Shown here piece by piece: positions 14,657 to 48,969 of a stretch of 64,000 nt of DNA. How positions within the stretch are numbered: the first letter of the stretch is position 1; every line of letters starts with the position of its first letter. Source of the DNA: Natrinema sp. CBA1119 (GTDB lineage: Archaea > Halobacteriota > Halobacteria > Halobacteriales > Natrialbaceae); NCBI RefSeq assembly GCF_002572525.1, contig NZ_PDBS01000008.1, forward strand, positions 62,001 to 126,000. The letters are read 5' to 3'. Both the position numbers and the translations under genes were made by a program. The notes beneath the pieces are model-generated. The model searched no databases, was not told the DNA's origin, and saw only the letters and a program-made list of their open reading frames with translations.

Positions 14657-14828
14657 GTCGCCGTACGGAGCGTAGCCGCTCGAGATCTGTGACGACTGTG
14701 CCGTCCAAGAGCCTCCCGATCCCAACAAGCCGGATCACCACACCTACGATGAGTGTGGACTCGTCGTTAAAACGCTCGCCGCACTCACGCGGTTTCGTGT
14801 CGAGTTCGGGCATCTCGTGGATGAGTGA
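14657..14828 (+). pseudogene. Fragment of a CxxC protein
   Basis: Frame VAVRSVAARDL, then after a two-base shift CDDCAVQEPPDPNKPDHHTY and VVKTLAALTRFRVEFGHLVD, to a TGA at 14826. The CDDC and later Cys suggest a zinc-binding module. There is no start codon and the frame is shifted, so I treat it as a remnant. Confidence 0.4.
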
Positions 14829-14899
14829 CGCTCGGCCGAGTGAGGCTCACATCGTACACACGAAAACGGCTAAGTGCGTTGGCTCACAATGTACACATC

Positions 14900-15202
14900 A
14901 TGAGCACCGATAAGAAGCGCGTGCAGTTTCGGGCCCCCAATCGGCTCATCGACCGGGCCGACGCACTGGCCGCAGTCCTCGGGGAAGACCGAACAGACGT
15001 CCTCGTGACCGCGCTTCGGGAGTACCTCCAAGACGCCGCTCACGACGACGCACTCACCCAAGAGATCGCCACCGCCTATTACGACGACGAGATCACCTTC
15101 GATCAACTCAAAGCACTCGTCGGCGCCGAGGAGGCGGCAAACCTCCGAGTGTTGAAACAGCAGTTGGAGGAGGATTTCATCGACGAGGTCGCCGACGCAT
15201 AG
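14900..15202 (+). CDS. VapB-like ribbon-helix-helix antitoxin
   Basis: This 100-residue protein starts at MSTDKKRVQFRAPNRLIDRA (ATG at 14900). The N-terminal strand RVQFRAP and helices RADALAAVLGEDRTDVLVTA form a ribbon-helix-helix DNA-binding domain. The C-terminal acidic helix would wrap the toxin. It is followed with no gap by the PIN-domain gene, the classical order of a VapBC pair. It probably neutralises the toxin and represses the operon. Confidence 0.75.
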   Translation: MSTDKKRVQFRAPNRLIDRADALAAVLGEDRTDVLVTALREYLQDAAHDDALTQEIATAYYDDEITFDQLKALVGAEEAANLRVLKQQLEEDFIDEVADA

Positions 15203-15715
15203 ATGTCGCGGCTTATCGCAGACGCCTCTGCCCTCGTGAGTCTCGGGATCGTTACTGACGACGACCCCGATCCACTCGCACTCTGTCTCTCCCGGTACGA
15301 GGTCGTCGTCCCAACAGCGGTCATCGATGAAATCCAAGAGATCGCTTCCTACGATGACATCCATGGACACGCCGCGTCCGCCGTACTTGACCAAGCAGAG
15401 TCATTCACGACACAGTCGGTCGAACTCGATGCCGAGTTTCCACTCGATGACGGTGAGAACGCGGCGGTCACGCTCGCGAACGATCTCGATGCTGCGCTCT
15501 TCCTCTGTGACGAGTTCAACCAACTTGGCTTGATCCACGCCTCACTCGCTGATACCCGACTCGTCACGACACCGACGCTGCTCTCGGTTCTCGTTCGAAC
15601 TGAACACCTATCAGCTGCCGATGCGCGGCTGCTCCTCGATGAGATTAGCAACGCCCGTAGCTGGGGCGCGAACAGTTACGTGCAGCGAGCTCGCTCGTTG
15701 CTCGAAGAGCCCTGA
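15203..15715 (+). CDS. PIN-domain toxin (VapC-like ribonuclease)
   Basis: The 170-residue protein begins immediately after the antitoxin stop. PIN-domain acidic residues are visible: D7 in LIADASALVSLG, E in VIDEIQEIA, E in DDGENAAVTLA and D in ALFLCDEFNQLGL. They should bind metal and cleave RNA. The C-terminal helix LLLDEISNARSWGANSYVQR is typical of the longer archaeal subfamily. It forms a toxin-antitoxin module with the upstream gene and may stabilise the replicon. Confidence 0.8.
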   Translation: MSRLIADASALVSLGIVTDDDPDPLALCLSRYEVVVPTAVIDEIQEIASYDDIHGHAASAVLDQAESFTTQSVELDAEFPLDDGENAAVTLANDLDAALFLCDEFNQLGLIHASLADTRLVTTPTLLSVLVRTEHLSAADARLLLDEISNARSWGANSYVQRARSLLEEP

Positions 15716-16222: not shown

Positions 16223-17299
16223 TTAGTTAATACGGAACCGGAGGAGCGCTCCAAGGCCCCCGAATGCAGTATCGAACTGAGCACCTCGATCTGTGTCAGT
16301 CGACACAACGAGACACTCACCGCCTTGGTCAGTCGTCGCTGCCTCCAGTTCACGAATCTCCGCTGGTGGCCGTGCGTCGGAAACGAGAAGGACGTCGACT
16401 GCTCCATAGTCGAGGGCGGTTTGCGTTTCATCAGCTCCGTAGGCGACATCTCCACCCTGTCCCAGCGCCGCGAAGAATCGATCGAGAGCTTCCCGTTCCC
16501 GTCGGCGCTCAGCATCAGACAGTACGTCCTCGGCACGCTCAACGAGCTGCGAGAGACCCTGCTTGGTCGCGTACTCAATCGGATAGACGCCTAGTATGTG
16601 GTCCCGCAACTCGTGGTGGAGATAGTCACCCTGCTGGAACTCGTCGACGGTGATCGTCGTCCCGCCGAGGATGACGCCATCGACAGTGGGCTCATCGAGG
16701 AACGTCTGCTCGGCAGCGTCGGCGACCTGCTCGAAGAACTCGTGTTTCTGGCGGTCGCGCTCACGTTCGAATCGCTGCGCACTCTGACCGCCAGCACGGG
16801 ATTTTCCCATCACTTGGCTCTCGAAGGTCCGACTGGAAACGATGCGTTCGCCAGCGAGGCGACCGAGGGCGGCATGGCCCCGTTCGAGGACAACCAGACC
16901 GTACACCTCTGACGGGGTGAGCGCCTGCTCGACGGGGGTAGTCTCGAATTCAGCCGCACAGCGGTATAGCGAGACGTCGACGGGGACGTCGAGATCGTCG
17001 AAGACGGCATCCTGCAGCTCACCGTCGACGACACCAGCGTAGATGACAAGGCCGCTTGGTGGTGTCTCTTCGTACGCTTGGAGGAGGCGTCGGATGCGTC
17101 CGAGAGCGTCCTGGACGTGAGTTCGTGTCTGATCGGATTTGATGTTCGCAGCCTGTGCATATTCGCGGTCGATGCGCTCACGGACCGCATGGAGTGATTT
17201 GTCTGGCGGGACGGCCACGGTGATGAGCTCGGTGCCCTCGCCACGGTAGTTTGTGAGCTGGTCGATTCGATTGCGGAGTTCGTACTCGGTGGTCTGCAT
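16223..17299 (-). CDS. Short aRF1 paralogue (Vms1/aRF1-like peptidyl-tRNA hydrolase)
   Basis: The 358-residue protein starts at MQTTEYELRNRIDQLTNYRG (ATG at 17299). It has the eRF1/aRF1 N domain with a readable NIKS motif (AANIKSDQTRTHVQDAL), the central domain with AGGQSAQRFERERD (GGQ hydrolysis loop), and a C domain that ends AFGGLGALLRFRIN. Genuine haloarchaeal aRF1 is about 415 residues and carries a Cys-rich zinc insertion in the C domain, which is absent here. It could act in termination or in ribosome rescue. It stands alone and is probably plasmid cargo. Confidence 0.75.
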   Translation of the reverse strand: MQTTEYELRNRIDQLTNYRGEGTELITVAVPPDKSLHAVRERIDREYAQAANIKSDQTRTHVQDALGRIRRLLQAYEETPPSGLVIYAGVVDGELQDAVFDDLDVPVDVSLYRCAAEFETTPVEQALTPSEVYGLVVLERGHAALGRLAGERIVSSRTFESQVMGKSRAGGQSAQRFERERDRQKHEFFEQVADAAEQTFLDEPTVDGVILGGTTITVDEFQQGDYLHHELRDHILGVYPIEYATKQGLSQLVERAEDVLSDAERRREREALDRFFAALGQGGDVAYGADETQTALDYGAVDVLLVSDARPPAEIRELEAATTDQGGECLVVSTDTDRGAQFDTAFGGLGALLRFRIN

Positions 17300-18200
17300 T
17301 TGTCTCGGTGAAAGCGGCGTCGCTGCTCGATGAGAAGGCGATACACCCGCCGGCGCCGCTACCAACTACGAAAGAACAGAGCAAGCGCTCATCGTCCGCA
17401 CGTTCACCTGTTGCACCGGCGGTGTGTGGTGCATACTATGTCGTTCGTGACGGTGCAGGATAATGCTTCCGTCGAGACGGCAGGCGGTGGCCGAGAACGG
17501 ATAGAAAGCCCTCGGCCGCTCGGCATCCCGCGACCCACGCTGCGCTCCTCGTGCCTGTGGTGCTTGCGGAGTCGGGGACGTTCACGGCGCTCTGCGCCGT
17601 GAGCTCGGGAGACGTAGTCTCCCGGTGACCGAGACGGCCTCGCCCTTTCTGAGTCCACCAGGATGTCGGCTGTGTGACTGAGCGTCGAGCCCGGTTGAAC
17701 AGGTTCTTTGTTACGGCCCGCCCCGCTCGCCGCTTCCGCCCTCTGCGCCGCTCGCGACCGACCATTCCGGGCGTGCGGGCGCTCTACGCACCGCGAGCGC
17801 CCGTTCCGAGCTAAAATGTATGTGCCCTCGACGCCAGCGGGTATCCCCGTCGGTTGCGCCCCTTGCGGGCTTTCGCGTTCCAGCGCTTTGTGCCGCCTGC
17901 GCTGTCGCGCGCCGCCGTGTGGCGCGCGTTCTCGGCGACAGTCGCTCTGGACACGGTCCCACACATCGGGCCGGACACGAGCGGGCATATCCCGCTGGAC
18001 GCTTGCTCCGCGCGGGTCGGCGCGTGGTTCTGGTTGGGTGACCTTCCTTTGGCGCTCTCGCTCGCGCCCCAAGGGGCGCTCACGAAGGCGCGAGCGAGAG
18101 CGCGTAGATGGTTCTGTCGGGCATTGTCGTCGAAGAACCGCGATGTAGGAGCATCGCGGTGTCGGGCGCGTGAGCGCCTTCGGAATTTTGGAGAATTCCA
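17300..18200. other. GC-rich structured non-coding stretch upstream of an OB-fold gene
   Basis: About 900 bp have open frames on both strands, but the products are Arg-rich and basic, unlike haloarchaeal proteins, so I see no gene. The stretch is full of inverted repeats: a 16-bp perfect stem CGCTCTCGCTCGCGCC at 18053-18068 pairs with 18087-18102, ACCGCGATG/CATCGCGGT pairs at 18137-18160, and CGCGCGCC/GGCGCGCG near 17907-17930. It may be a long structured leader or an RNA gene. Confidence 0.5.
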
Positions 18201-19097
18201 ATGTCAAGTATCAACGTTACCACTGATGTAGTTTCAGTCGATGAACAGGCATTCGAAAAAGCGGACGAAGCGAAGGTCGATGAAGACGGCCTCGAGGTCG
18301 TCGATGAGACGCCGGAATTCCAGGCGACGGTGCAGATGGAGGTGCAGGCAAAGGTCGATGCGAACCACCCGGACGGGATGGTCGACACCAGTGAAGAGCG
18401 GATCTACGGTGCGACCCTCGAACAGGAAGAGCGCATTCGGGCGCGAGAGGCTGAACTGGAGCGCATCAGTGCCCAGGCGGAGATGGGGACGCAAGAAGGT
18501 CGGGAAAAGCGTACGCGAGACATCGCAGCGAAGCGGAGTGCTGAGTGGCGTGCAGAGTTCCAGAAGCGGGCGGCGAGCGTGGACCCGTGGGCGGACCCAG
18601 AGCGGGACGACCCTCGTGCAGAACTGACGCAGAAGCAGTTGGCGGCGGTGAACAAGCAGTCGATGCGGCTGGCGGAGAAGCTGGGTGGCTGGTCGCGAGC
18701 AGCGATTGGCCGGCGGCTGGGTGAAGCCGTCGTCGGTGGGAAAGACCTGATGAGCGCGGTCGTTGGGGTGTTCGAGGAGTTGCAGACGGCGCCGGGACAG
18801 GTAGTTCCCATCGGGATGCTCGAGGACGTCAATCGTAAAGAGGTGAGCATCGAAGGTACTGTGACGCAGTTGTGGGAGCCGTCAAGTTCAGCCATTTCTC
18901 AAGTGGGAATCATCGAAGACGAAAGTGGGCGAACGAAGCTGACGTCGTGGGTCGCAAGTGACCAACCCTGGATCGAGGAGGGCGAGCGTGTTCGCATTCA
19001 CGGGTCTGCGAAGAACTGGTACAACGGGCGCGTCTCGGTGGCTCTGACCGGCTGGACCACGGTCCACTTCCCTGAGCGCGGTCGGTGGTGGGAGTAG
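18201..19097 (+). CDS. OB-fold single-stranded-DNA-binding-like protein (RPA-related)
   Basis: This 298-residue protein has an acidic N-terminus, a long charged helical region (LEQEERIRAREAELERISAQ) and a C-terminal OB fold: VSIEGTVTQLWEPSSS, QVGIIEDESGRTKLTSW, GERVRIHGSAKNWYNGRVSV. The last pattern is typical of archaeal RPA-like ssDNA-binding domains. Similar genes are frequent on haloarchaeal plasmids, where they may assist replication or repair. The start at 18201 follows directly after the hairpin-rich region. Confidence 0.75.
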   Translation: MSSINVTTDVVSVDEQAFEKADEAKVDEDGLEVVDETPEFQATVQMEVQAKVDANHPDGMVDTSEERIYGATLEQEERIRAREAELERISAQAEMGTQEGREKRTRDIAAKRSAEWRAEFQKRAASVDPWADPERDDPRAELTQKQLAAVNKQSMRLAEKLGGWSRAAIGRRLGEAVVGGKDLMSAVVGVFEELQTAPGQVVPIGMLEDVNRKEVSIEGTVTQLWEPSSSAISQVGIIEDESGRTKLTSWVASDQPWIEEGERVRIHGSAKNWYNGRVSVALTGWTTVHFPERGRWWE

Positions 19098-19255
19098 CCG
19101 GTCGTCGCACCCTTCTTTTTGCTACGTGCCGGACCGACCCAAACCCCACCTCCCCGCCCTCCGCTCCGTGCTCGCTCACTTCGCTCGCTGCGCGCGCAGC
19201 CACAACCGTTCTTGAAAGCCAAGGGGCACCGATACGATTGCCAAGAAGCAGACAG
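19098..19255. other. Short spacer with hairpin
   Basis: It contains a GCTCGCTCACTTCGCTCGC-type palindromic repeat near 19167-19195, similar to the stem-loops at 6955 and 41470. No gene. Confidence 0.35.
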
Positions 19256-21461
19256 CTACTCATCGAAGCCGTGGGATTGGCGATGATATTTGAGATACTG
19301 TGAATTTGGATAATGTTGAGGGTTATCCGGGAGATGAAGTGATTCTCCGTGATGTCTACTGAACTCTCCATATCCGGGCACGGACTCCCAGTCACGAACG
19401 AGGATCTCGTAATCATCTGAAACAGCGATCCACCCCTTCTCAAACGCCCAATGATGGAGACGACACAATGCAATGCCATTCTGAAGGGTGTCAGGACCAC
19501 CATCGCTAACCGGTCGAATGTGGTGAGCCTCGACCTCCGGTAGTCCATCTTTGGTCTCTCGTCGCGCTCCACAGATGGCACATGTCCTATCATAAGCACC
19601 CCGCACCTTTTTCATAAATTCCCCATCTCGAACCGTACGTGTTGTAGAGGTGCGTCGCCGTGATACCCTCTCTGGTGGGTCATCGACATCAGACGGCTCA
19701 AATTCGTTCTCTATGGACTGCTGGTCCCTCGCTTCGTCCTTCCGTTTGTCTGTGGAGGCAGAGTTGGAATCCTCAATAGAGGTATCTTGGGAGGATCCTG
19801 AAGACAATGATGAACCAGTATCAGCAGACGCTGATTGATTCTTTCCGCCGACACCACTTTCAGAGGCGTCTCCAGCAGTAGCAAACCCTTCCTCCTCACT
19901 TGAGGTTGTGATTGAAGGTTTCTCATCGGAATCTTCACTGGTTGCCCCTGCTGGATATCCTCGCTCCCCTGGATCGTCGCTGCCAGTACCAGAATCTGTC
20001 TTGGATTCAGACCCAGTGCTTTCCTCAGCTGTTTCAGCAGAGTCTTCCTCAGATCTGCTCGAGGACTGTACTGCTGCCTGGATTGAGTGCCGATCGATAT
20101 CAAACGTATCGAGGAACGAGTTCAGGAACCGTTCACGTTTGCCGAGAGCACCTGATAGAATCGATTCCAATTCCTCTGCCGCCGATGCAGACAAGGATAG
20201 CTCATATGGGAGGCGCCGGGTGAAGGCCTGTAATGAGCTTGTTCCCTCGGTTCGTCGAATCGTATTTTCTGATCGATCCAAGTAGCAACGTACCTCGAAT
20301 TCTTCAGTTATCGGCTCTCCCTTTGTGGACAGATACTGGCACTCAATCGTTTCATGAACGATTACTTGGAAATCAGCAAAGATGTCGAGGAGTTCATCGC
20401 TTGCTTCCGTATTCTGATGAGCCGAACAGAAGCTGTAGGCAACAGTAAAAAGCTGCGAGAACTCTTCAGATTCGCAGACAGGGCCTTCCTCAGAAACAAC
20501 AACATTGTGACCCGTCAGCGACAGCGTCGTAGTGTCAGCAAGGTTCTCAAGCTCAAGCAGCTCCCACACCTCAGCGACTGTCTCGTTTGTATAATCCCTA
20601 CGGTCATACGGCTTCACGACCTCATCCGCGATATCTGAACGAAGATGCTCTCTGATGGTTTCATTGTCGCAGAAATAATCCAACTGATCAAGCGCCACCA
20701 ATTCATTTGACAGCGCCAACAGGCACTGATGGGACAATTTCTCCCGGACCTCTGCCTCAAGTCCCTGGAAAGAGGTTAGTTCAGAGGCCTCACTAACGAG
20801 TTTACGAACCGTTCGTCGCCAGACGACATCCCGATCGTCGTCATCATCCCAAGCTACATCGGCAAGAGAATCAAGATAATCCGAGATTTGTAGGGAACTT
20901 CGAACACCGACCGTATTGAACAGCTCCTCATACTTCCCGTACTCCGATTCGATTGAGACGATGTACGACCCTATGTCCTGACCATTCCAGACGACTTCAT
21001 CAGGCGACCTGAACTGCGGATTTTTATGCTCAAGATAGATGAACCGTGCATTAGATAGCGCCTCGTGTATTTTTTCTTCTATATCGGACCCAGCGTCCAA
21101 AAGTCCCTGCTGCAGGGTATCAAGCCGACTGGTCAGCTCCTGCCGGATAGTTGGCGGGTCAGCATCACCCCAAACGCTTGGCGCATTAGATAACTGTTCA
21201 AGGGTCACGTCAATGCCGAGCTTTGTCTTAACCCCAAGCGGATCAAGATAGGGACTGTCCGTTGAGGCAATATACATCTGTGGTGGCTGGTTCGCAGTCG
21301 CTGGATTTTCCACTAAGAGTGTTCGTGGTGGAGCAAGAGTCTCATCCTTTGTTAGACACCAAGATGTGTTTCGGAGTAGATCACCAAATGTCGAGTAACG
21401 ATCCGTCTGGGTCGGTTTCGCTCGATATGCACCACCCCTACCACGCTTTGTGACGTAGTAT

Positions 21462-22849
21462 CAGTACCTCACAAAGCCGGTTAGTTAGAACGTCTGCTTG
21501 CTGAAGGTGTGTTCAAGACCCAACAAGCAGACAATGAAATCCACGAAGACGAACTCCTTAACTTTCTCGTCAACCGGCTTGACGAGGAAGTTTCGCTCGG
21601 CCTTTCGAAAAACGCTGAAATAGATGCTGAGGTCATCTACGAGGTCCTCGTCGGCGCGTGCGCCGACGGGACCTCGGTCTCTACGTTATGTGGCTCTAGC
21701 GAGAACTCACCCGCAGCGAACACGATTCTCTATCATCTGCGGACGAAGTTCGAGCCGGAACGGCTCGAACGAGTGGCTAACACACTCCTTCGGCAGGATG
21801 TCGTCGAATTGCTCCCCGAGCAGGTGGAGGTCTGCGCAGACCTCCACCTGCGACCCTACTACGGTGACGAAGCCGACACAGACGGCCTCTACCACTCCGA
21901 GGCCAAGCGCGGAACCACCGCCTTCCACGCCTACGCCACACTCTACGCGCGTGTGAAGAACAAACGCTACACGCTGGCGGTGCGCCGTCTCGAAGACGGC
22001 GACACCGCCAGCAGCGTCCTCGCTGAGTTCCTCGGCGTCCTCGACGGCCTTGACACCGAAGTCAAGGCCGTCTACCTCGATCGCGGATTCTACGACAGCA
22101 AGTGTCTCACGTTACTCCAGACGCACAACTACGCCTACGTTGTCCCGATTATCCGGTGGGGTGAGACGATTCAGCAGGAACTCTCGGAAGGATGGAGTCG
22201 CGTCATCAACCACGACCTGACAGGGAAACTCGACGGTCACAGCTGGACCGTCGAGTTTCCGGTCTACATCGACTGTACGTACCTGAACGGACGGTACGAC
22301 GAGAACGGCGTGGCGCGTCACGGCTACGCCGCTGACGCACCGTTCATTGACACGCCACGCGACGCTCGATACCATTACTCGAAACGCTTCGGTATCGAGT
22401 CGAGCTATCGCTTGTCCGAGCAAACGATAGCGACGACAACAACGCGAGACGCGACGGTGAGACTGCTGTACGTCGTAGTAAGTCTGCTGTTGCAGAACGT
22501 CTGGCGGTATCTCCACCACGAATACGTGGCGACGCCCCGCCGAGGCGGGCGCCGCCTCTGGTGGTGGCCGTACAAGGAGTTTATCAATATGGTTCGACGG
22601 GCTGCGTGGACGGCCCTCGCGGTGCGTCGGGCCGTCCCCGCGAACCGGCCACCAGACGACCGGTTCCACCGGTAGTCACCGACCAGGAACGCCGCCTTGT
22701 GAGTGGCTACGCTGTCGCTGTCGGCGGCGGTCAGCCGCCGACGCGACAGCTCCGCCTTCGAACAGCGTTGTTCAACCGCTATCGGCGACTCATCACAACA
22801 GAACAGGTGACTCAGGTCAGGTGAACTGGCGATGCTTTGTGAGGTACTG
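21462..22849. mobile_element. ISH3-family insertion sequence (1388 bp) with 5-bp target duplication
   Basis: The perfect 16-bp inverted repeats CAGTACCTCACAAAGC (21462-21477) and GCTTTGTGAGGTACTG (22834-22849) are flanked by the direct repeat AGTAT (21457-21461 and 22850-22854). Length, repeat type and 5-bp duplication fit the ISH3 family. The intact duplication shows a simple, probably recent transposition into the large ATPase/HNH gene. Confidence 0.93.
21509..22675 (+). CDS. ISH3-family transposase
   Basis: This 388-residue transposase starts with GTG at 21509. The DDE catalytic region is visible: D in VCADLHLRPYYGDEADT, D in VKAVYLDRGFYDSK and E in RFGIESSYRLSEQT. It is full length and unbroken, so the element may still be active. 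A hairpin-rich 160 bp separate its stop from the right terminal repeat. Confidence 0.9.
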   Translation: MFKTQQADNEIHEDELLNFLVNRLDEEVSLGLSKNAEIDAEVIYEVLVGACADGTSVSTLCGSSENSPAANTILYHLRTKFEPERLERVANTLLRQDVVELLPEQVEVCADLHLRPYYGDEADTDGLYHSEAKRGTTAFHAYATLYARVKNKRYTLAVRRLEDGDTASSVLAEFLGVLDGLDTEVKAVYLDRGFYDSKCLTLLQTHNYAYVVPIIRWGETIQQELSEGWSRVINHDLTGKLDGHSWTVEFPVYIDCTYLNGRYDENGVARHGYAADAPFIDTPRDARYHYSKRFGIESSYRLSEQTIATTTTRDATVRLLYVVVSLLLQNVWRYLHHEYVATPRRGGRRLWWWPYKEFINMVRRAAWTALAVRRAVPANRPPDDRFHR

Positions 22850-25511
22850 AGTATAGGGGACGGTGGAGCTTTTCTTCGTAGTATCCCCAGTACTCCTGTA
22901 GCATCTGGTCAAATGCTTTTGCCCGGTCAAGTTCCGAATCCGTGTTCTCCGAAAATTGGTTCAGCACATCGCGGAACCAGTCACACGGTACATAGTCAGA
23001 GAGAGAATATCGGCGGTTCTGGGGAAACCATTGGTCTTTTGAACCGCCCTTCTTCCGCGAATCTGGGATCGACCAGTCCGCTTTCGTCGAGGCTTGAGCA
23101 AAATCAGAAAGCGACTCAACTAATTCCTCTTTGAGCGTATAGAATGCCCGGTCTCTTGTGGCTAGCTCCTTGACTGGAAGGTGCTCAAAAACACCACACT
23201 TGATGAGGAATTCCTTCCATCTCTCGGGCTGGCTCTCACCGGTGAGCGACACATACTCCTCTGAGATAAATGTCGCATCTAACCCATCAAGTACCCTCTC
23301 AAGACTGTATCCACCATCTGAAGAGGTGCCTTGCTCTCGGAAGTAGCCATCAGGTAAGAAAATATCGGATCTGGACGGGTTGCGATAGACAGTATCGTCA
23401 GCACCATCTCGAACACGGAACTTCAGATCGACATATTTCCTTGCAGTAGCCCACCGGTTTTTATTTGAGAAAATGTACTCTAAGTGAGTATCCAAAGTGG
23501 CGTCATCGGTGCTCTCTACACTATCAAACGCGTCGGCTACAATTTCCTCCAAGACGATCTCTGAGCCAATCGTCTCAGTCCCCAGGACTTGAGAATAGAA
23601 TTTGCGAGCTCCCTCAACTATTTCTGATGGCTTTGCGGGGTACTCCTCAGGTATCGAAGCAACATCAAGCTGGACTAATCGGAACTCGTCCTCAAATATA
23701 TCATATTCCTCTCTACCTCGTTTTGGGGGCAGTAACGGACTATCCTCAACTAGAGAGACAGCAATCCGTTTACCACTTTCAAGCGGAACTAATGGCGTCT
23801 TTTTGACGACACTCTCAAAGCCATTCCGAGCATCCGTCTTATCACTAAATGTGCTAAGATTCCTGTATTCATCATCCCAGTACTCCCAGAGAGCTGCAGC
23901 AAATACAAGAAGATGAGCAGTGCTTGCCCGAGAGAAGTCTTCACGAGCTGAATCTTCGCTTTGCTTCAACAGACTCTCGACCGAAACCTCCTCAATAATA
24001 CTACGACCACGTAGTGTGGAAAGCAACGATTCGTCCATCGATTCTGCAGGATATTCAACAGCCCTTCCAAGAAGATGCTTCACATCAGACTTGGTGAATA
24101 CATTTTCGACGTGGTATGTCGGTACGACAATAGCCCCAGGCCGATGGTATCCTCCATCCTGACCCGGGATTGAATCCTCATCGTTCAGCGCTTCCACAAC
24201 CGCATCTTTTGCGGCAGAAGTGTGATCCAATCCATATTTTTGCGATGGTAACAGCCGGAGATGGCCGACACGTTCAGCATTCAGATCCCGATAGTGCTCA
24301 ACGATCTTCCGAAACGTATCTCCAACACGATAAAGCAGCCACTGATTATACGCACCATCCCGCCAAGCTAGCGCTTTCCGGCTCGGTTCCAATAGAAAAT
24401 CCGCATGGATATCAAATGGGAATCCTGAACGTTCATCAGTTGGTAGGAAATTGAATAGATAGCACTCCTCCGCCTCAGAGAGGGGACGATGCTGGTCATC
24501 AACCTCAAAAGAGACCGTGACTGAAACCGGAGACTCTCGTATTGTCTCTATATCGTCTATCTGCCGGACCTCAGCCAGCTGCTCAAAAGCTTCGCCAGAG
24601 GGGGTATCATCCGTCCTAAAGACTAAACGCCGCTCGAATATACTATCATCCTTGTAGATGATTCGCTCAGGTGAATCAGACTTCGATTCCCGATGATAGA
24701 CAGTTGTGCTGTTTCCCTGTGTGACCTCAATCTGGGAAATGTTACGGAGATAGGTCAGAAGGCGATAAACCTCATCCAGACGATTTTGAAGCTCGTCATG
24801 CTTCTTTGAGGAAAGATCGTCCTTGAGTGGGAGTTCGATTTCAGTGCCATTGATCGGCTCAGCACCATCAAGGATTCTGGGTACGGTCAGCTGCTCAGCA
24901 TCGAACTCAAAGTGGAAGTATCCAGATCGGATCCGTGGATTTTCTGAGATGCTAAAAACCGACTTAAATCCAAGTCCAAAATGACCGATATACTCGGGAT
25001 CGTGCTTTGTACTTTCACCGGCTGCACAAAGTGTATCCACTTCCTCGGTCTTCACTGGTCGCCCATTATTCCGGATTCGAAGCATATCGTCCGTTAACTC
25101 AATCTGGACCGTGTCACAAGGTTCGACATCATCAGCATTCTGAATGAGCTCTGGGAGGACCTGGGCAGGGTGGTCTAGCTGTCGCTGAATATAATCGTGG
25201 AAACTCTGTGTTCGGTTTTGTCGACGCTCAAATTTATCCTCAACAACTCTGAGTTCTTTATCACGGATATCTTTCAGCAGTCTCTTGGCCTCCTCTGCTG
25301 AGTCAGGATGATCCGCGAGATGTTTAGGGTCCTTCAGTTGCAAGTTAGCAGTGTGTTGACTGTCTGCTGATAAAACCGTTGTCCACAGTACCGTTGTCAA
25401 TATCTGGTGTTTGCAAATACTACTGTTTCGCATAATGAAGCTGTAAAAGGAGAGCTAGTAAACCTCTCACTCGGCCTGTGAAAATGGCGTGATAGTCTGG
25501 AATTGTTTGTT

Positions 25512-25549
25512 AGCCCCTCAATGAATGAGGGGCTCGCTGTAATGGCGAG
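25512..25549. promoter_or_regulatory. Tandem hairpins upstream of the TFB gene
   Basis: AGCCCCTCA-ATGAA-TGAGGGGCT is a perfect 9-bp stem, immediately followed by CTCGC-N7-GCGAG. They sit in the divergent intergenic region 13-60 nt before the TFB start, so they could be an operator, a leader structure or a terminator. Confidence 0.45.
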
Positions 25550-25570
25550 TCTCCAGTAATCGTGAGCACA

Positions 25571-26494
25571 ATGACAATTAGAGATATCTACGGAACTTGC
25601 TTCGACGAAAATGTCCAGACAGAGTCAAGCAACCAATGCCCCGAATGCGACGGACGTGTAACTACGAACTCGGTCGAAACGGTCTGTGAGGATTGTGGCC
25701 TGGTCATCGAGGAAAGTCGAATAGACCAGGGGCCAGAGTGGCGAGCGTACGACGAGGACCAGCGAAAGCGGACAGGTGCTCCACTTACAGCGGCACGTCA
25801 TGACCGAGGGCTTTCGACCGAGATCGGTCGCGGGAAAGATGCGAACGGGAACGAACTCTCTGGACAAAAGCGCCAGCGGCTATGTCGAATGCGGCGGGAA
25901 CAGAATCGTGGTCGGTTCCAGTCGAAAGCCGAGCGAAATCTCGCACACGGCTTAGGTAAAGGTCGAAGAATCGCAAGCGTCCTTGAGCTTTCAGGTTCGG
26001 TCCGTGACCAGGCGTGTCAGCTGTTTCGGAGCGCTCAAACCGAAGGTCTGCTTCGAGGCCGATCAATCGAGGCGATCGCGGCAGCAAGCGTTTACGGGGC
26101 CTGTCGCTGTAACGGCCACTCACGGTTACTCGACGACGTCGTCGACGCGGCACGCGTTGAACAAGCGAGAATCACGAACGCGTACAAGACGGTGAATACA
26201 GAATTCGGACTGCCGACCCAGCCCGTTCGCCCTAGCGAATTCATCCCCCGGCTTGCATCAGAACTCGATGTTCCAGCGTACATCCGACAGCGAGCTCGGC
26301 GGTTGGCTGAACAGTCGGAATCGACAGGAGCAGTGTCGGGCGTCAAGCTATCTGGATTCGCAGCTGCCTGTCTGTACAAGGCGGGTCGCGAAGAAGGATG
26401 GTGGCTGACGCAGGCGGAAGGCGCTGCGGCGGCGAGCGTCACTGCAACGACCATCCGGTCGCATCGAGACACGTTAGAGGTGCAGGTAGCCTGA
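25571..26494 (+). CDS. tfb: Transcription initiation factor TFB
   Basis: This 307-residue TFIIB homologue starts at MTIRDIYGTCFDENVQ; a GTG 9 nt upstream is an alternative. The N-terminal zinc ribbon is CPECDGRV...CEDCGLVIEE, followed by the B-finger region (DQGPEWRAYDEDQRKRTGAP) and two cyclin repeats (AAASVYGACRCNGHSRLLDD and FAAACLYKAGREEGWWLTQA) ending in a helix-turn-helix. It recruits RNA polymerase to TBP-bound promoters. Haloarchaea use several TFBs with different promoter preferences; this accessory copy and the TBP at 40793 could form a replicon-specific pair. Confidence 0.92.
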   Translation: MTIRDIYGTCFDENVQTESSNQCPECDGRVTTNSVETVCEDCGLVIEESRIDQGPEWRAYDEDQRKRTGAPLTAARHDRGLSTEIGRGKDANGNELSGQKRQRLCRMRREQNRGRFQSKAERNLAHGLGKGRRIASVLELSGSVRDQACQLFRSAQTEGLLRGRSIEAIAAASVYGACRCNGHSRLLDDVVDAARVEQARITNAYKTVNTEFGLPTQPVRPSEFIPRLASELDVPAYIRQRARRLAEQSESTGAVSGVKLSGFAAACLYKAGREEGWWLTQAEGAAAASVTATTIRSHRDTLEVQVA

Positions 26495-46325: not shown

Positions 46326-46934
46326 ATGGGAACGGGCGAAGATGCGAAACCTCGAACGAAAGTAGGGAAACTCATCGAAAAATATGATTTTGAGGGGATC
46401 GGTGATGAACTCGAGCGGATGTGGACGGCATCCGGAGACGAACGGAAAAGTCTACGGGAACTGGCAGCGATATTTAATAAGCGTCTTCTCCAGTCCAGGA
46501 TCCGGGGTTCGGAGATGAGTCGCCTTCGCACCGACAACGACGATATGTATCTCCAGCTCACGGGTGAGAAGGGGACGTCAGCCGACCAGACGCGGATCCG
46601 ACGACAACTAGAGCGTGAGGGAGTCGACGTTGAGACGCTTCAATCCGACTTCGTCTCCTACGGAGCGATCCGGTCGTTTCTGAAAGAAGAGCGAAGCGCT
46701 GAATACAATCCGAGCCAGAATCCCGTTGAACGGGATACGGATAGCATCCAACAACTTCGCAACCGGACGATGTTGGTTACCGAGACGAAACTGAACGGAC
46801 TGGTGGAGAACGATCACATCGAACTCGGCTCTTACGAAGTTACGGTTGATATCAACGTCTTTTGCGAGGAGTGTGGCCGTCAGTTCGATGTTATAGATAT
46901 TCTCGAGCAAAAGGAATGTGACTGTAAGAAATAG
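46326..46934 (+). CDS. rdfA: RdfA-family protein (rod-determining factor A)
   Basis: The protein has 202 residues. Family pattern: KVGKLIEKYDFEGIGDELER, SLRELAAIFNKRLLQ, a central REGVDVETLQSDFVSYGAIR, and a C-terminal zinc-ribbon-like VDINVFCEECGRQFDVIDIL...CDCK. In Haloferax volcanii RdfA affects rod-cell formation, and homologues are often next to SMC-like genes, as here (gene 2 starts about 100 nt downstream). The C-terminal Cys cluster and helical N-terminus suggest a nucleic-acid or protein adaptor. The exact biochemical role is not established. Confidence 0.8.
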   Translation: MGTGEDAKPRTKVGKLIEKYDFEGIGDELERMWTASGDERKSLRELAAIFNKRLLQSRIRGSEMSRLRTDNDDMYLQLTGEKGTSADQTRIRRQLEREGVDVETLQSDFVSYGAIRSFLKEERSAEYNPSQNPVERDTDSIQQLRNRTMLVTETKLNGLVENDHIELGSYEVTVDINVFCEECGRQFDVIDILEQKECDCKK

Positions 46935-47034
46935 ACAGCTGCCGGTAAGTTGACTCCTGTCGCGTCGCTGATCAGCGGGAGTCTATCGTATCGACCGAAG
47001 GGTTTATTGTATGTTGTAGTATATGATTTCAGTA

Positions 47035-48969
47035 ATGAGTGTTGAACAACAGAAGCGAGACGTTCAACTAGCCGTGGAACAGATCGGCGGAATCGAGAAT
47101 ACGTCAGTGACGTTTTCTCCCGGCGTAACACTCCTCGTCGGGCGAAACGCGACGAACCGTACATCACTTCTTCAGGCCGTAATGGCTGCCCTCGGAAGCA
47201 ACGACGTTTCGGTGAAGGGGGACGCGAACGAAGCGACCGTCGAAATGAATGTTGGGGAGGATACATACCATCGATCACTCAAACGCACAAACGACCACAT
47301 CACGGCCAGCGGCGAACCGTACCTTGAGGACTCGACGCTGGCGGACCTCTTCGCATTCTTACTGGAATCGAACAAAGCCCGTCGTGCCGTTGCGAACAGC
47401 GACGACCTTCGGGAGATCATTATGCGACCAGTCGACACCGACGAGATTCAAGCCGAGATCGAACGGCTCGTCCAGCGACGTCATGAAGTCGACCAGGAAC
47501 TCGATGAGATCGAATCACTCAAACAGCAACTGCCGTCGCTCGAGGAAGAGCGGACGAGTCTCCGAGACCGTATCGAAGACATTCAGGCGGAACTCGCCGA
47601 CAAAGAGGCGGAACTCGATTCTCGCGATGCCGACCTCGAACAGACCCGCGAGGAGAAAGCGGAACTCGAAGAGAAACTTTCGACCCTCCGTGACAACCGT
47701 TCGACGCTGGAGACCATTCGATACGATCTGGAGACGGAACGGGACAGTCTCGACTCGCTCCAGTCTGAAATGCAGGAACTCGAGACGGAGTTGGCCGAGC
47801 TTCCGGAGACCCCGGTCGGCGAGATCGACGAATTAGAGTCGCGTATCGATCGACTCCGAGCGCAGAAGCGACAACTCCAGTCCGAAATCAGCGAATGTCG
47901 GAGCGTCATTCAGTTCAACGAGGATATGATCGGGGAGACGGATACGGAGCTGTCTGCCGCCCTCGGTTCGGACGGGCCGGTCACGGACGAACTCCTCCCC
48001 GAAGAGACGACGACGTGTTGGACGTGCGGGACCGAAGTCGATGTCGAGCAGATCGAAGCGACGGTCGACCGACTCCGAGAGTACTCCCAGCAGAAGAGCC
48101 AGGAGTCAAACGAAATTCAAGACGAGTTAGATACGTTGAAAGAGGAGCGCCGTGAACTCCAGCAACAACAAAGCCGTCGGGAAGACGTCCAGCAGCGTCT
48201 GACCGAACTCGACCGCGAAATCGAAGCGACGGAGGACGAAATCGAACAGTTGACCGACCGGAAGGAAACGATTCGAACCGAGATCAGCGAGGTCGAGAGT
48301 GAAGTCGAAGCGTTGGAGAACGACTCCTACGAGGAGATCCTCGACCTCCACAAGGAAGCGAATCAACTGGAGTACGATCTCGGGAAAGTCGAGGGGAATC
48401 TGGAGGGGGTCGAAGCCGAAATCCAGGAGATCGAAGCGCGGATCGACGAAGAAGACGAACTCACAGAGAAACGGGAAGCGCTCACTGACGACATTTCCGA
48501 ACAGCGAACGAAGATCGATCGCATCGAACAGCAGGCCGTCGATGAATTCAACGAGCACATGGACACCGTGCTAAACCTGCTCGGTTACGATAATCTCGAT
48601 CGAATCTGGATCGAGCGGGTCGAACGGGAAGTCCGCGAGGGGCGTCGGAAAGTGACCAGGAGCGTGTTCGATTTGCACGTGATCCGCCAGACGGAGAACA
48701 ACACGACCTACGAGGATACGATCAATCACCTCAGTGAGAGCGAACGGGAAGTGACCGGATTGATCTTCGCACTCGCCGGCTATCTGGCCCACGAAGTGTA
48801 CGAGACCGTCCCCGTCATGATTCTGGACTCTCTGGAAGCGATCGACTCCGAACGGATCGCGGAACTGGTCGAGTACCTGTCCGACTACAGCGATTACCTC
48901 GTGGTAGCGCTCTTACCGGAAGACGCGGTGAGTCTCGACGACGAGTATCAGCGGATATCGGAAATCTAA
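47035..48969 (+). CDS. Archaeal SMC-related coiled-coil ATPase
   Basis: The protein has 644 residues from MSVEQQKRDVQLAVEQIGGI. Head part 1 has a divergent Walker A (LLVGRNATNRTSLLQAV, with NRTS instead of GKST). Long coiled coils span about 120-300 and 350-510; a CWTCG zinc-hook motif is at the apex (about residue 325). Head part 2 has a signature-like LSESEREVTGLIFALAGYL and Walker B VPVMILDSLEAIDSERIAEL. It resembles Rad50/SMC-type DNA tethers. It is adjacent to rdfA and framed by two palindromes. It probably organises DNA or chromosome/plasmid structure in concert with RdfA. Confidence 0.85.
   Translation: MSVEQQKRDVQLAVEQIGGIENTSVTFSPGVTLLVGRNATNRTSLLQAVMAALGSNDVSVKGDANEATVEMNVGEDTYHRSLKRTNDHITASGEPYLEDSTLADLFAFLLESNKARRAVANSDDLREIIMRPVDTDEIQAEIERLVQRRHEVDQELDEIESLKQQLPSLEEERTSLRDRIEDIQAELADKEAELDSRDADLEQTREEKAELEEKLSTLRDNRSTLETIRYDLETERDSLDSLQSEMQELETELAELPETPVGEIDELESRIDRLRAQKRQLQSEISECRSVIQFNEDMIGETDTELSAALGSDGPVTDELLPEETTTCWTCGTEVDVEQIEATVDRLREYSQQKSQESNEIQDELDTLKEERRELQQQQSRREDVQQRLTELDREIEATEDEIEQLTDRKETIRTEISEVESEVEALENDSYEEILDLHKEANQLEYDLGKVEGNLEGVEAEIQEIEARIDEEDELTEKREALTDDISEQRTKIDRIEQQAVDEFNEHMDTVLNLLGYDNLDRIWIERVEREVREGRRKVTRSVFDLHVIRQTENNTTYEDTINHLSESEREVTGLIFALAGYLAHEVYETVPVMILDSLEAIDSERIAELVEYLSDYSDYLVVALLPEDAVSLDDEYQRISEI

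Follow-up and report, generated by a model that had tools for sequence, protein, structure and literature searches.

RESULTS

An ISH3-interrupted gene in a plasmid cargo slot

The window, meaning the whole 64,000-nucleotide stretch of Natrinema sp. CBA1119 DNA that was analysed, holds one reading frame at 19256-25433 (minus strand) that is cut by an insertion element at 21462-22849. The locus comprises the following features:

18201-19097, plus strand: OB-fold RPA-like gene, a conserved plasmid neighbour bounding the slot (similarity ends at 19207)
19256-25343, minus strand: ISH3-interrupted tmtA-HNH gene running from a probable TTG start (25343) to its stop (19256), 1564 aa if uninterrupted
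22855-25343, minus strand: N-terminal half of this gene, with the GHKL ATPase and transducer as well as some of the core
23981-25238, minus strand: HSP90/GyrB/Topo VI-B-like ATPase plus transducer, residues 66-485 of the 1594-codon reading, predicted from an AF2 model of the intact relative
22850-22854: target-site duplication AGTAT, right copy
21462-22849, plus strand: ISH3-family insertion sequence (IS) of 1388 bp, 89.6% identical to ISH27-2 of pNRC100
21457-21461: target-site duplication AGTAT, left copy
19256-21461, minus strand: C-terminal half, with the remaining TmtA core, an acidic Ser-rich linker and the HNH nuclease
19663-20083, minus strand: linker (22% Ser, 24% Asp+Glu) of low sequence conservation, which NOV_C-type relatives have as well
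19256-19662, minus strand: HNH_2 nuclease domain of TagI/McrA type, His-Asn-His motif in EAHHIRP, QNGIALC and LHH
25562-26494, plus strand: TFB (TFIIB-type) gene, the conserved plasmid neighbour that flanks the slot at its opposite end (similarity begins at 25505-25517)

Scripted excision of the IS and one AGTAT copy joined 19256-21461 to 22855-25433 in a single frame of 1594 codons that contains no internal stop. The joined protein is colinear with its intact counterpart in Halorubrum hochsteinianum (1561 aa, WP_008580622.1), which is encoded on plasmid NZ_CP098416.1 (87883-92568) and annotated just as 'HNH endonuclease'; the two are 64% identical along their full length (1568 columns), with no break at the junction. 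An in-frame join by chance was ruled out by this homology across the junction, and two independent genes were ruled out because the intact relatives, including a second one that is 57% identical along its full length (G311, L120), are single genes. The first-pass annotation had proposed one gene split by an IS, and both this proposal and the in-frame join of its halves held; its C-terminal half stopped at 21456, but that half reaches 21461 when one copy of the repeat is kept. The outcome that would have refuted it, homologues always occurring as two separate genes, did not occur.

The length of 1594 aa, counted from an ATG at 25433, had to be revised. In the near-identical sequence of Halobacterium sp. 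DL1, the ATG equivalent to 25433 is followed by TGA as codon 2, while the start that RefSeq annotates for the intact gene of H. hochsteinianum falls, in the alignment, on a TTG at 25343. These alignments argue against ATG 25433 and for a start that is probably the TTG, with a predicted product of 1564 aa instead. Relative to H. hochsteinianum, both halves show far fewer amino-acid-changing than silent differences, the latter being near saturation, and the linker alone is loose. The split frame suggests that the IS insertion would have caused loss of function.

All of the features of ISH3 membership are present in the element: a family transposase (21509-22675, plus strand; NCBIfam transpos_ISH3, 378 bits against a cut-off of 225), terminal inverted repeats (16-bp perfect ends) and a 5-bp target duplication. 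The same genome carries five full, 100% identical copies on four contigs and each of the five is flanked by its own perfect 5-bp repeat, which indicates that the element moved recently.

The gene exactly fills the interval between the RPA-like and TFB genes (19208-25505), which is a variable cargo slot, and its own neighbours are plasmid-backbone genes and not a defence island. Five other plasmids with both neighbours carry different cargo, such as a PD-(D/E)XK enzyme or a HEPN protein, and an HNH-repeat protein is another occupant. In Haloterrigena alkaliphila, an LmuB-like (Lamassu) ATPase lies beside TFB, where the RPA side is not conserved. On a plasmid of Halobacterium sp. DL1 (L072 9001-13744), the slot retains a tmtA remnant of 157 aa with 98.7% protein identity; nothing else of the gene survives, and next to the remnant comes a 4.3-kb segment with inverted ends on which ABC-transporter genes lie. 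For the slot of N. bangense, the presence of a tmtA remnant with HNH was considered and rejected, as tblastn gave no match. The slot offers a handle for finding cargo, defence genes included, on haloarchaeal plasmids. Elsewhere in the window lie a plasmid-borne paralogue of the archaeal release factor with eRF1 domains 1-3 (16223-17365, minus strand), an archaea-specific SMC-related protein (ASRP; 46326-48969, plus strand) preceded by a short ORF that is perhaps RdfA, and a two-gene unit (14825-15715, plus strand) whose second gene weakly matches PDC-S70 of PADLOC and which may be a toxin-antitoxin pair.

The joined protein belongs to the TmtA family

The best family match of the joined protein was the PADLOC TmtA (Tiamat) profile PDLC03968 (E = 1.4e-170), with residues 36-1465 aligned to positions 26-1349 of the 1486 in the profile, which had no matches in 14 control genomes. 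A SACS domain was found by Pfam below threshold, the NCBIfam P_loop_sacsin model (sacsin N-terminal domain) scored 79 bits against a cut-off of 50, and a profile built from 20 relatives retrieved sacsin and HSP90-family structures. The expected ATPase motifs comprise the N box (ELIQNADD), a glycine-rich GHFGLGFKS and GTEIELPLK. The Asp of the HSP90 DTGIG motif is replaced by Asn, as in sacsin, so ATP binding may be weak.

For the intact relative, residues 1-1190 were modelled with AF2 (mean pLDDT 74.5) and the model was compared with known structures using VIA. Residues 37-453 matched HSP90, GyrB and Topo VI-B with Z scores of about 16 (rmsd 4-5 over about 270-290 residues), and the sacsin SR1 fold was matched with a Z score of 14.8. 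The first three matches suggest that the ATPase comes with its transducer, and the first ~450 residues are thus predicted to be a complete HSP90/gyrase-type ATPase module. The C-terminal model was poor (mean pLDDT 47) and gave no significant match in Foldseek and VIA searches. The middle ~850 residues have no assigned fold.

At the other end of the protein, Pfam identified an HNH_2 domain (E = 9e-11) whose sequence matches in the PDB were TagI and McrA only; the NCBIfam PT-DNA_restrict model also matched this tail, below its cut-off. HMM searches with the joined protein and structure searches with the intact relative, of the kind recommended beforehand, agreed with the sacsin/HSP90-like ATP-binding N-terminus, the acidic Ser-rich linker and the C-terminal HNH nuclease of the first-pass annotation, and the intact single-gene relatives confirm that ATPase and nuclease are truly fused. 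Its 'about 1000 uncharacterised residues' did not survive, since they are TmtA-family sequence, of which the first third forms the GHKL transducer.

A nuclease swap on a conserved core

Relatives at E <= 1e-30 are patchily distributed, occurring in 17 of 391 genomes of the class. In this sample of haloarchaeal genomes, from which the counts of tail types are also drawn, the other TmtA-like tails that were scanned all carry NOV_C (DUF3883, PF13020; seven of seven, one just under the cut-off), a domain of PD-(D/E)xK type, with an ExK motif, and three proteins carry HNH in its place: those of the window, H. hochsteinianum and G311. When viral contigs were scanned with the C-terminal half, no relative was found.

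A tree of the core with 24 rows places the HNH trio in one clade (support 100/100), and its sister pair and the next group out are NOV_C types. As the HNH clade is nested inside NOV_C types, NOV_C is most simply ancestral, and a single event replaced one nuclease by the other in a common ancestor of three or more haloarchaeal genera. Both sides of this swap have the acidic Ser-rich linker. Compared with that of the window, the HNH domains of the three TmtA proteins show 67-68% identity, against at most 55% for stand-alone HNH proteins, the nearest of which in haloarchaea, own genome included, are fused to MTaX1 or SRA. The genome of CBA1119 itself encodes two stand-alone HNH proteins of the TmtA-tail type (L063 9191-10453 and L064 8945-10468), and the former is MTaX1 plus HNH by Pfam.

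Both intact HNH relatives lie among restriction/modification genes. The H. hochsteinianum gene adjoins genes for a 482-aa protein, a type II m5C methylase, an HhH-GPD/nicking-type protein and a helicase with Mokosh-like similarity, while that of G311 adjoins a DUF1156/HmaB-type methylase, an HmaC-like protein and a DUF262 GmrSD/type IV-like enzyme. These contexts, together with the family match to TmtA of the Tiamat antiphage system, support the defence role proposed at first sight; housekeeping surroundings of intact homologues, which would have refuted it, were not found.

A further genome (G392, L126 7049-10314) has a TmtA broken into two overlapping ORFs, probably by a frameshift, and additionally holds an intact NOV_C-type TmtA. 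The decay in DL1 and the split in G392 fit dispensability and cost alike, without separating them. Silencing of the window gene on account of its cost, and its reversal by precise excision, would be conjecture.

DISCUSSION

We consider it probable that a recent ISH3 insertion broke a Tiamat-like antiviral gene of the TmtA family carried on a plasmid, and that the intact protein was most likely an ATP-gated nuclease. Dimer gating, DNA as the target and an antiviral effect are what we infer for it. The HSP90/gyrase-like GHKL module and its transducer would dimerise and close upon ATP, and sensing of a viral cue or clamping of viral nucleic acid would fall to the large core; this would free the HNH domain on its flexible acidic linker, or bring it into place, for DNA cutting. 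That the nuclease type changed on a core that stayed conserved suggests that the tail is the effector. Two surveys list Tiamat among systems of unknown mechanism (PMC12926258, PMC10482375), and a natural nuclease-for-nuclease swap at one position predicts that the ATPase core is the gate and the tail is the DNA-cutting effector. Since the replacement by a bona fide HNH nuclease took place once and on the same ATPase core, we lean slightly towards NOV_C being itself the killing nuclease and Tiamat being an ATP-gated platform with exchangeable nuclease effectors, both forms of which occur in haloarchaea. The three HNH-type proteins, one IS-split and two intact, permit a direct test in this group.

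The same nuclease might instead belong to a modification-dependent (type IV) restriction enzyme, with the HNH domain cutting foreign modified DNA, the TmtA core acting as a new sensor of base or backbone modification and the ATPase in a regulatory role. The TagI/McrA/PT-dependent group to which the domain belongs, the SRA or MTaX1 fusions of its closest stand-alone haloarchaeal relatives and the DNA methylases that adjoin the intact relatives would all suit such an enzyme. We nevertheless regard it as unlikely, because the core is common to NOV_C-type TmtA proteins, which have no known modification dependence, and the Pfam scan of the joined protein found no SRA, sulfur-binding or other modification reader, although ~850 core residues have no assigned fold.

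The fold of the N-terminal region, equal to that of HSP90, GyrB and sacsin, would also be expected of a chaperone-like or repair protein with a housekeeping rather than a defence function, but the patchy distribution, the plasmid location, the position in a cargo slot and the defence neighbours of the relatives make this very improbable. We give equally little credence to a split gene that still works, with the halves made separately (the C-terminal half from a GTG at 21313 or an IS-borne promoter) and then assembled. Neither half contains other stops, which would accord with such an arrangement; however, with five identical IS copies bearing intact repeats, the insertion may be so young that there was no time for either half to decay. 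In addition, the insertion falls inside the core and not at the linker, and the intact relatives are all single genes.

The preferred reading, a Tiamat-like ATP-gated nuclease, can be set beside several known systems. MORC and paraMORC GHKL proteins have been linked to restriction systems (PMC2292703), and the closest tested precedent is VcSduA, a Shedu protein with a GHKL ATPase (paraMORC3), in which mutating either the ATPase or the nuclease abolishes defence (PMC12137116). It likewise combines an N-terminal GHKL ATPase with a C-terminal nuclease in one protein, but the nuclease is a PD-(D/E)xK DUF4263 domain and the TmtA core is lacking; Pfam and PADLOC scans of the joined protein found neither DUF4263 nor a family relation to VcSduA. 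TagI/McrA/ScoMcrA-type modification-dependent enzymes have an HNH domain of the same kind, whereas their own N-terminal readers (SRA, sulfur-binding) are replaced here by a 1300-residue ATPase core. Sacsin and plant NO VEIN, the namesake of the NOV_C domain in other TmtA proteins, share the SACS-type ATPase domain, but are eukaryotic proteins without a defence role. Tiamat itself, which was reported in 20 of 382 complete archaeal genomes according to a statement in PMC13321033 citing Millman et al. 2022, is likewise a single-gene system, and its ATPase and core are matched across the full profile, although the window protein has a C-terminal HNH_2 domain where Tiamat usually has NOV_C/DUF3883. 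NOV_C is usual but lies outside the profile-based definition, and we file the protein as a TmtA family variant, not as canonical Tiamat: the ATPase and core already constitute a known defence family, and what is new here is the HNH tail.
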